A stretch of 64,000 bases of DNA from Phycisphaerae bacterium (GTDB lineage Bacteria; Planctomycetota; Phycisphaerae; UBA1845; UTPLA1). Shown piece after piece: positions 10,699-33,897 of this stretch (positions within the stretch are counted from its first letter, which is position 1; the number at the start of each line of letters is the position of its first letter). The position numbers were made by a program, and so were the translations under genes. The stretch lies in assembly GCA_023150615.1 (NCBI GenBank), contig JAKLKO010000004.1, forward strand, positions 124,001-188,000, written 5' to 3'. The notes beneath the pieces are model-generated. The model saw only the letters and a program-made list of their open reading frames with translations, did not search any database and was not told the origin of the DNA.

Positions 10699-12282
<1,584 letters not shown>

Positions 12283-12420: not shown

Positions 12421-12455
12421 CCCGTTCGGCGCCCCGGCTCCGAACGGGTTTTTTT
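12421..12455 (+). terminator. Intrinsic terminator of the 16S unit
   Basis: CCCGTTCGG (12421-12429) pairs with CCGAACGGG (12440-12448) across a 10-nt loop and is followed by seven T residues (12449-12455). It ends the rRNA transcript directly after the 3' arm of the processing stem. Confidence 0.92.
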
Positions 12456-31046: not shown

Positions 31047-31925
31047 CTACGCGCCGGTCGCGTAGTACGTCTCGACGGCGACCGGGAGTCGTGCCCGCAC
31101 GACGTCGGCAATCGCGTCGAGTTCGCCGTCGGCCAGAGGCGTGGCGTACGGCTCCGGCGTCGGGCGCGCGATCGTGTACGTCTGAATCAGACTGAATCGT
31201 GCGCCGCGCGCCAAGAGGTCGGCGAGTCGATCGCAGTAGGCGACGATCTCCTCGTTCGGCGGCGGCCGGCCGTGCACGCGCATCCAGAGCGATTGGATGA
31301 TGACCGGCCGGGCCCGCGCGGCGTCGAGGATGTTGTCGAGGACGTGCTGAAGCGGGACGTTGGGGCGGTTGACGAGCCGGTAGTAATCCTCCGTCCCGGC
31401 GTCGAGCTTGGCCCAGATCTCGCCGTTGTTTCGATCGAGGATCTCCAGTCCCGCGCGGACCTTCGACTTGGTGAGGTAGCACGCATCGGTGATGAGCACG
31501 AGCTTCGCGTCGTGCAGACCGGCGCGGCGCCGCGCGTCGGCGGCGACCTGCACGGCCTCGTCGAATCGCGGACACGTCGTCGGCTCGCCGTCGCCGGAGA
31601 AGGCGATGTCCCTGACGGCGCGGCGATCGACCGGGACATGGTCAAGCGGCGGCACGGTGAACAATCGCCCGTCAGCCGCGGCGGCGAGGACCACATCGAG
31701 TTCGTCCCGCAGGCGATCTAAATCGACATCGCGGATCCGGGGTGGAGTTTTTCGATCGACCTCGCAGTAGATGCAATCGAAGTTGCAGGCCTTGTCCGGA
31801 TTCAGGTTGATGCCGATCGACAGACCGTGCGATCGGCGCGAGAGAACGGCGTAGACGTAAACATTGTCCCGCCAGCGGCGGTCGTGATTGGCGTAGGCGA
31901 CTTGTGCAAGCGGGCGATCAGTCAC
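31047..31925 (-). CDS. Radical SAM protein
   Basis: This 292-residue protein has the iron-sulphur motif CNFDCIYC near residue 49 (CxxxCxxC) and the glycine-rich SAM motif FSGDGEPTT. It belongs to the group of small radical SAM proteins of uncertain function that begin with a YVYAVLSRRSHGLSIGINL segment; no extra cluster-binding cysteines or RNA-modification domain are apparent. The predicted reaction is unknown. It is the first gene of the leftward three-gene operon and is divergent from the RNA candidate and ubiD. Confidence 0.88.
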   Translation of the reverse strand: MTDRPLAQVAYANHDRRWRDNVYVYAVLSRRSHGLSIGINLNPDKACNFDCIYCEVDRKTPPRIRDVDLDRLRDELDVVLAAAADGRLFTVPPLDHVPVDRRAVRDIAFSGDGEPTTCPRFDEAVQVAADARRRAGLHDAKLVLITDACYLTKSKVRAGLEILDRNNGEIWAKLDAGTEDYYRLVNRPNVPLQHVLDNILDAARARPVIIQSLWMRVHGRPPPNEEIVAYCDRLADLLARGARFSLIQTYTIARPTPEPYATPLADGELDAIADVVRARLPVAVETYYATGA

Positions 31926-32059
31926 GGGTCGGCGGCCTCGTGTTTTGTAACCTCATATCTGCGTGCGAATTATGGTATCGGGACACCTCAATCGCGACCA
32001 CGGCGAATCCGCAAGTTTTTCCGCATTGCGGGAATAGTTCGCGCGGACACGTGGTTTGC

Positions 32060-32193
32060 TAGGGCGGACACCGATCGCGGCCCGTCCTTACCGGGGGCCG
32101 CGTCCGAAATATTGCGGTCAATGGGTGATTGTCGGCTCGCCCACCCTTGGTCGCAATCCCATCCGGCTGGTCGGGCTGGATGGGTTTTTTTTT
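32060..32193 (+). ncRNA. Candidate structured RNA or leader upstream of ubiD
   Basis: Between the divergent radical SAM gene and ubiD the plus strand can fold into a chain of helices ending in a textbook terminator. Helix A: CGCGGCCC (32076-32083) with GGGCCGCG (32095-32102), extended by CGGA/TCCG. Helix B: ATTGCG (32111-32116) with CGCAAT (32152-32157), enclosing GGGTG (32123-32127) with CACCC (32142-32146). The terminator hairpin follows at 32158-32193. No open frame upstream of this terminator was recognised. It is either a free small RNA or a premature-termination leader of the ubiD cluster. No known family (SRP, 6S, tmRNA, RNase P, common riboswitches) was recognised, and no convincing promoter was seen. 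Confidence 0.5.
32158..32193 (+). terminator. Intrinsic terminator upstream of ubiD
   Basis: CCCATCC (32158-32164) pairs with GGATGGG (32178-32184), with further weak pairing in the 13-nt interior, followed by nine T residues (32185-32193). It lies about 125 nt before the ubiD start and has no gene upstream of it on its strand. Confidence 0.85.
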
Positions 32194-32316
32194 GCGCCCG
32201 CCCCAACCACTCAGGTACCGGACCTCCTTTTCAACGCGCCGCCTTCGATTCGGCAGCGACCGCCCCGGCGACTATCATGCGGCCCTTCGACGTGTCGCCG
32301 ATCAGGAGTCCCGGCG

Positions 32317-33897
32317 TTGCCGTATCCCGACTTGCAGACGTTCATCGCCGACCTGGAGCGTCGAGGCCAGCTTCGGCGCGTCCGGGCCGAGGTCGATCCG
32401 GACCTCGAGATCAGCGCGATCGCCGATCGCATGAGCAAGATGCCGTGTCCGGAGGGCGCGTCCGGTGCGCCGCCGACCGACCCGGTGCACGGCGCGAAGG
32501 GGGGCTTGGGGCTGCTGTTCGAGCGCGTTCGCGGCTCGTCGATCCCGGTGGCGATCAACGTGTACGGCAGCTATGCGCGCGTGCGGCTCGCGCTGGGCTG
32601 CGAGAGCTTCGAGGCGCTGGCCGAGCGTGTGCAGAAGCTGATCAAGCCCGAGCCGCCGCCGACGCTGATGGGCAAGCTGAAGATGCTGCCGGAGCTGGCG
32701 AAGATCGCGAGCTATCCGCCGAAGGTGGTGCGAAGCGGCCTGTGCCAGCAGGTCGTGCGAACCGACGACGCGGACTTGCGGTCGCTGCCGATCATCAAGT
32801 GCTGGCCGTACGACGGCGGCGATGATGGCGAGGTCATCGTCGGTCGTGCGGCACGGGACCGATCGTCGCCGAACGACGCCGCGACAGGTTTGAGCGCGGG
32901 ACGCTACATCACCTTCGCGGGGATCTACACGCAGCCGCCGGGCGGCGGCGAGCGCAACGTCGGCATGTATCGAATCCAGGCGACGGGGACGAAGTCGGCG
33001 ATCTTTCACTGTCACGTGCATCACGACGGGGCGCGGCATCACCGGCTGTACGCGGCCCGGGGCGAACCGATGCCCGTGGCGATCGTCCTCGGTGGCGAGA
33101 GCGTGCTGCCGTACGCAGCGACGTGTCCGCTGCCGCCGAACGTCAGCGAATTGCTGTTCGCCGGATTCCTGAACGGAAGCGGCATCGAACTCGTGCCGTG
33201 CAAGACCATTCCGCTGGACGTGCCCGCCAACGCCGAGATCGTGATCGAGGGTTGGGTTTCGCCGGACGAGCGGGAGCGCGAAGGACCGTTCGGCGACCAC
33301 ACCGGCTTCTACAGTCTCGCCGAGCCGTTCCACACGTTGCGCGTGACGGCCGTGACGCACCGGCGCGATCCGGTCTATCCGACGACGATTGTCGGCAAGC
33401 CGCCGATGGAGGACTACTACCTCGGCAAGGCGACCGAGCGGATCTTCCTGCCGCTGCTCCAGATGCTGATCCCGGACCTCATCGACTACCACCTGCCGAT
33501 CTTTGGGGCGTTCCACAACTTCGCGTTCGTGAAGATTCGCAAGCAGTACCCGTACCAGGCCCGAAAGGTGATGAGCAGCATCTGGGGCGCGGGGCAGATG
33601 ATGTTCACGAAGTTTATCGTGGTGGTCGACGAGGACGTGAACGTCCACGATGAGCAGGACGTGCTGTTTCACGTCGGGGCGAACGTCGATCCGCGGCGCG
33701 ACACAGTGATCGTCGACGGGCCTCTGGACATCCTGGACCACGCCGCGCCGTACGAGGGCGCCGGCAGCAAGATGGGGATCGACGCGACGCGGAAGATACC
33801 GGGCGAGGGTGTGGTCCGCGCCTGGCCGCGGGAGCTGGAGATGAGTCCGCAGGTCGCGGAGCGCGTGGCAAGGCGCTGGAGCGAGCTGGGGCTCTGA
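32317..33897 (+). CDS. ubiD: UbiD-family prenylated-FMN decarboxylase
   Basis: This 526-residue enzyme removes the carboxyl group from a prenylated aromatic intermediate of quinone synthesis, using the prenylated FMN made by UbiX. Family motifs are present: GQLRRVRAEVDPDLEISAIA at the N-terminus, LPIIKCWPYDGG, RNVGMYRIQATG, EGPFGDHTGFYS (catalytic E-D region) and KPPMEDYYLGKATER. The start is taken as TTG because AGGAG (32304-32308) stands 8 nt before it and the protein then starts with YPDLQTFIADLERRG, as in homologues; the longer upstream frame crosses the RNA/terminator region. Clustering with ubiE and ubiX supports a role in menaquinone or ubiquinone synthesis. Confidence 0.94.
   Translation: MPYPDLQTFIADLERRGQLRRVRAEVDPDLEISAIADRMSKMPCPEGASGAPPTDPVHGAKGGLGLLFERVRGSSIPVAINVYGSYARVRLALGCESFEALAERVQKLIKPEPPPTLMGKLKMLPELAKIASYPPKVVRSGLCQQVVRTDDADLRSLPIIKCWPYDGGDDGEVIVGRAARDRSSPNDAATGLSAGRYITFAGIYTQPPGGGERNVGMYRIQATGTKSAIFHCHVHHDGARHHRLYAARGEPMPVAIVLGGESVLPYAATCPLPPNVSELLFAGFLNGSGIELVPCKTIPLDVPANAEIVIEGWVSPDEREREGPFGDHTGFYSLAEPFHTLRVTAVTHRRDPVYPTTIVGKPPMEDYYLGKATERIFLPLLQMLIPDLIDYHLPIFGAFHNFAFVKIRKQYPYQARKVMSSIWGAGQMMFTKFIVVVDEDVNVHDEQDVLFHVGANVDPRRDTVIVDGPLDILDHAAPYEGAGSKMGIDATRKIPGEGVVRAWPRELEMSPQVAERVARRWSELGL

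Follow-up and report, generated by a model that had tools for sequence, protein, structure and literature searches.

A structured RNA in front of ubiD

In this study, we asked what a three-hairpin RNA element that ends in a transcription terminator, and has no gene of its own, is doing upstream of ubiD. The element lies in a stretch of 64,000 nucleotides (the window, meaning the whole stretch of DNA that was analysed) from a 4.1-Mb draft genome whose UbiD protein is closest to those of Phycisphaerae and other Planctomycetota, and the first-pass annotation had left two readings open, an independent small RNA or a transcription-attenuation leader. From comparison of sequences across the order, we consider it quite probable that the element is an autonomous small RNA (sRNA) gene of a new family and provides a thiol-oxidative stress regulon of sigma-R/RsrA-like type with a noncoding arm, which probably acts in trans through a loop and without Hfq.

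The three helices and the nine T residues that had been described on the strand of ubiD are all present, at 32065-32193 (+), and make up the following features.

32065..32193, + strand: predicted small RNA of about 129 nt with three hairpins (from the fold and the homologues)
32065..32106, + strand: 5′ hairpin (from the fold; sequence differs between genera, with a covarying counterpart in family f4)
32111..32157, + strand: central hairpin, the conserved core that presents the near-invariant loop (by covariation, 12 of 12 pairs changed on both sides)
32132..32141, + strand: loop TCGGCTCGCC of the central hairpin (the same in 45 of 48 homologues)
32158..32193, + strand: intrinsic terminator (hairpin at 32158-32184, then T9 at 32185-32193)

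Helix 1 pairs CGCGGCCC (32076-32083) with GGGCCGCG (32095-32102) and is extended by CGGAC (32065-32069) and GTCCG (32102-32106). Helix 2 joins ATTGCG (32111-32116) to CGCAAT (32152-32157), with GGGTG (32123-32127) and CACCC (32142-32146) pairing inside it, and helix 3, that of the terminator, is formed by CCCATCC (32158-32164) and GGATGGG (32178-32184). The 134-nt segment folds with an energy of -63.1 kcal/mol (z -2.35), a value matched by 5 of 200 dinucleotide shuffles. Its T9 is the longest T run of the 64-kb window, where GC content is 67% and the expected number of T8 runs is 0.03. Starting from a TTG, an open frame (32056..33897) crosses the RNA region into ubiD; homologues of the RNA carry helix-preserving substitutions and indels and show no codon conservation, and the earlier statement that no coding frame precedes the terminator is right in substance.

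Elsewhere in the window, a lone 16S rRNA gene (10699-12279, +) is an unlinked rRNA gene, no 23S rRNA or tRNA having been found in the 64 kb, and a T7 hairpin terminator lies behind it at 12449.

A family of RNAs with a near-invariant loop

A DNA search of 60 relatives recovered the segment that runs from hairpin 2 through the terminator in some nine further genera, with TTGTCGGCTCGCC retained as the loop. A first covariance model, built from eight of these homologues, found matches in 36 genomes of the order; a second, built from 30 members, gave strong matches (E 5.5e-8 to 2.6e-17) in 47 of 114 genomes of the order, one in each (by family, f1 14, f4 21, f8 9, and one each in f5, f6 and f7). 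Covariance-model searching of 397 genomes of the class yielded one further strong match outside the order, and the RNA family appears essentially confined to this one order.

Covariation of the helices, which the first-pass annotation had named as a check, is evident among the 48 aligned homologues: 22 of the 23 pairs of the core helices are altered on both sides (292 cells), 95.4% of cells pair, and the covariation score is 0.761 as against at most 0.165 with one strand slid, with 0 of 500 shuffles reaching it, figures to be read in the light of an alignment that was fitted to the covariance model and so favours structure. Six related sequences fold with z of -3.5 to -4.2. Despite the model-fitted alignment, with an effect of this magnitude and an invariant loop there is little reason to doubt that structure is under selection.

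The three hairpins differ in what they conserve. In 45 of the 48 homologues the second has the very same loop, UCGGCUCGCC, and the terminator loop reads GGUCGG (DNA GGTCGG) in 26 of the 48, while the sequence of the 5′ hairpin differs between families and in f4 is conserved and covaries modestly. In many members (L101-L154; in the window at 32194-32197) GCGC stands straight after the terminator T run, though presumably untranscribed, and in some of them it could pair with GCGT or GCGTG preceding the central hairpin.

The suggested Rfam scan, made with Rfam 15 on the window and 17 homologous loci, gave no match above the gathering score at the RNA, and a permissive search of 411 bases returned as its best hit only E of about 1. 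A known Rfam RNA is ruled out, no family having matched; by these searches, the RNA is an undescribed family with one copy per genome and the near-invariant loop as its hallmark.

What the loop may bind

Hfq (PF17209) was found in 0 of 114 genomes of the order, by a search whose control was positive in 5 of 14 known genomes, so any pairing by the RNA does not use Hfq. Exact complements of the loop in its own genome number 13, as against 6 in the control, and lie mostly within genes; a 15-mer search allowing one mismatch brought out no recurrent gene start as a target across 15 genomes. Pairing of the loop with 16S rRNA was tried and rejected, since 3% of shuffled loops do as well as the best duplex (-24.3 kcal/mol) and pairing is weaker for the loops of other members.

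The lack of a recurrent mRNA complement is also what would be expected if this independent sRNA used its near-invariant loop as a protein-binding site and not as an mRNA-pairing seed, in the manner of a sponge or sequestration RNA. CsrB and RsmZ are RNAs of this kind for CsrA. Ten nearly invariant loop letters across many genera fit such a role, as does the GGUCGG of the terminator loop, which is unusual for a terminator; moreover, GUCGG or UCGG is often common to the terminator and central loops and could be a repeated recognition site. However, the motif shared by the two loops is short and no candidate protein is known; we judge a protein-binding function to be rather unlikely, though a serious rival. 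Action of the sRNA in trans, with the loop as a putative pairing seed, is the reading that we carry forward.

A sigma-R-type promoter and its candidate sigma factor

How such an sRNA would be switched on is suggested by two short elements upstream of the first hairpin.

32031..32036, + strand: GGAATA, predicted -35 element of an ECF (sigma-R/SigH-type) promoter (motif upstream of homologues)
32054..32056, + strand: GTT, predicted -10 element of the same promoter (motif upstream of homologues)

GGAATA-N17-GTT stands upstream of 28 of the 48 homologues, whereas 200 dinucleotide shuffles gave a mean of 0.14 and a maximum of 3. Judging by the spacing of the elements, transcription would start near 32063-32066, at about 32064, at the foot of the first hairpin. 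Experiments have confirmed the same arrangement as the promoter from which sigma-H transcribes trxB1 and mshC in C. glutamicum (PMC10012870), the Streptomyces sigma-R promoter has the form GGAAT / GTTG (PMC5005934), and the box at the RNA agrees with the GGAAT-N17/18-GTT consensus of sigma-R/RsrA systems taken from these two sources. The word redox in the earlier proposal was apt in this respect, as the promoter belongs to the type read by sigma factors for thiol-oxidative stress, but not in the sense of a switch for quinone genes. Two homologues, L147 and L154, are without the GGAATA box and have TACAAT- or TATAAT-like boxes upstream instead, looking as if the promoter had been swapped for a housekeeping type; L147 is also without the sigma factor orthologue described below.

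In the genome of the window, GGAATA-N17-GTT occurs in 10 copies, compared with 2 in the reversed control; most lie inside genes, and one stands directly before a gene for a thioredoxin-fold protein (thioredoxin-like domain, weak PMSR match). In a relative, G008, the box lies ahead of the gene for an ECF sigma factor and of msrA, trxA and trxB, a set seen in this one relative only; in both genomes, genes of the thioredoxin system or fold stand behind the promoter. About 50-70 nt beyond a further intergenic box of the form GGGAATA-N17-GTT in the window's genome (L162; G000:C33:44073-44098, +) come a GC-rich hairpin and a TTTTT tract; no gene is obvious there, and the box may mark a second sRNA of the regulon.

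The presence of the same box before the ECF sigma gene implies autoregulation. Orthologues of the G008 sigma factor (bit score above 120) occur in 60 of the 114 genomes, including that of the window, and inspection of 30 of their loci revealed the box upstream in 22 and a gene for an HxxxCxxC anti-sigma factor downstream in 28; from this motif, the candidate anti-sigma factor would be predicted to sense redox state. In the window's genome, the sigma protein, encoded at G000:C9:37489-38028, scores 111.6 bits against TIGR02947 (SigH/sigma-R; cut-off 251.55) and the anti-sigma protein 40.7 bits against TIGR03988 (RsrA; cut-off 62.5). Since both fall below the cut-off, we call the pair sigma-R/RsrA-like, that is, relatives and not members of these families.

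RNA and sigma factor tend to occur together: 39 of the 114 genomes have both, 8 the RNA only, 21 the sigma factor only and 46 neither, and the box is found at the RNA in 32 of the 39 genomes with the orthologue as against 0 of the 8 without it (Fisher 2e-5), with kinship among the genomes inflating both comparisons. On a tree of the radical-SAM protein encoded beside the RNA (30 loci), all 7 rows without the sigma factor are also without the box and the state of the sigma factor changes at least six times; well-supported (starred) branches contain only 3 independent pairs or losses, all in the expected direction and not significant alone, and some calls of absence rest on incomplete drafts (G067 68%, G022 67%). 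The 8 genomes that have the RNA without the sigma factor imply that the RNA has some role outside the regulon. Taken as genome comparisons, these patterns strongly indicate that the ECF factor controls the promoter of the RNA.

Planctomycetes carry many ECF factors and the trxA/trxB/msrA set was displayed by G008 alone, and one could thus suppose that the RNA is real but its promoter is read by another ECF factor, the link to a thioredoxin regulon being coincidental. This is improbable, given that the box also precedes the orthologous ECF gene at most of its inspected loci (22/30) and that, where the factor has been lost, the box at the RNA has gone too (0/8). Control by the sigma-R-like factor is accordingly assumed, as a prediction, in the model given below.

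Gene neighbourhood

The genes on either side of the RNA bear on whether it serves one of them.

32317..33897, + strand: ubiD, the downstream gene (TTG start at 32317 after AGGAG), an incidental neighbour (2 of 48 loci)
31047..31925, − strand: radical-SAM gene (PF04055), divergent, adjacent to the RNA at 30 of 48 loci (conserved synteny) and not part of it

Among the 48 loci of the RNA, ubiD follows in two, one of them in the relative G010, and the next gene, as predicted with a simple gene caller, runs towards the RNA in 28 of 47. The radical-SAM gene starts divergently just upstream in 30 of the 48; it has an SGDGEPT motif, and its divergent linkage to the RNA spans four or more families of the order. 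Because the downstream gene varies in this way, the RNA must have its own promoter and terminator. Conversely, of 80 ubiD loci fetched with their flanks from named genomes of relatives, 48 were searched, and the RNA was present at none. On this synteny, the RNA is not a leader of ubiD and is a free-standing small RNA. The independent-sRNA half of the first-pass alternative is thereby borne out, by a conserved promoter, a terminator, a single copy and changing neighbours, while the leader half did not hold.

Pairing of the loop with the neighbouring, divergent radical-SAM mRNA at the GEPT codons (GGCGAGCCGAC) was a candidate in view of an 11-nt exact complement in the window and of the conserved adjacency, but it was rejected and is most improbable, as the match is not maintained: the 10-nt GGCGAGCCGA complement is kept in only 8 of 30 neighbouring genes, and synonymous codons vary freely. 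A cis-acting attenuator or riboswitch in the ubiD-ubiE-ubiX leader, deciding between termination and read-through on a quinone-related or redox signal, would suit a terminator that precedes a same-strand operon and the recurrence of ubiD in G010, but it is ruled out by the synteny just given, and by a conserved loop and terminator kept where no gene is co-directional, to a point where we can attach scarcely any probability to it or to the metabolite or quinone switch first imagined for the ubiD cluster.

Proposed mechanism

We infer that the autonomous sRNA is induced by thiol-oxidative stress and that it works in trans, by way of its loop. In this model, disulphide or oxidative stress would make the anti-sigma factor release the sigma factor, and the freed ECF sigma factor would direct transcription of the RNA from about 32064, with RNA polymerase halting at 32193. 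The RNA may then act in trans through its exposed loop, most likely by mRNA pairing without Hfq, as a repressive arm of the response. More tentatively, with the chances somewhat against its holding in full, the family may serve a sigma-R-like response to disulphide stress as its post-transcriptional arm in Planctomycetota that lack Hfq. Its 10-nt loop motif would then have been kept throughout the history of the order, and there might be both a second occurrence of the motif, on the terminator loop, and a dedicated RNA-binding partner.

If true, thiol-redox stress would join envelope stress among the responses in which an ECF regulon includes an sRNA arm. The record of sRNA families in Planctomycetes is very short, with 8 counted for the whole PVC group in a 2022 review (PMC9029176), and an RNA for which a candidate regulator and a promoter can be named, whose loop is defined and which lends itself to a clear evolutionary test, would offer a handle on RNA regulation in a phylum that lacks Hfq.

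Comparison with known systems

In the literature that we searched, mostly outside subscription journals, we came across no description of this RNA, nor of any sRNA belonging to a sigma-R-type regulon. Among stress-induced sRNAs with a seed in a loop are the alphaproteobacterial CCUCCUCCC 'cuckoo' RNAs and CcsR, in which a short hairpin-loop motif is the sole invariant part. The RNA described here resembles them in its invariant hairpin-loop motif, but its loop is UCGGCUCGCC and not an anti-Shine-Dalgarno sequence, and it is present in single copy.

ECF regulons with an sRNA arm are known: in E. coli, MicA, RybB and MicL form that of the sigma-E regulon (PMC8103513). The RNA family itself is new by our searches. 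Like these three, it has its own ECF-type promoter and its own Rho-independent terminator, has no open reading frame and no fixed neighbour, and is predicted to be the noncoding output of a stress sigma factor. Unlike them, it belongs to an order in which the Hfq dependence typical of MicA and RybB has no counterpart, its putative seed lies in a hairpin loop, its sigma factor is of a redox and not an envelope type, and neither sequence nor Rfam relates it to them.

The regulon as a whole is closest in its design to sigma-R/RsrA of Streptomyces and SigH/RshA of Corynebacterium and Mycobacterium, with which it shares the GGAAT-N18-GTT promoter type, a box before the sigma gene, a gene for an anti-sigma factor of the zinc-type HxxxCxxC kind, and, behind the box, genes for a thioredoxin system and for methionine sulphoxide reductase. 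It differs from them in belonging to Planctomycetota, in its TIGR02947 and TIGR03988 matches lying below cut-off, and in including a conserved RNA.
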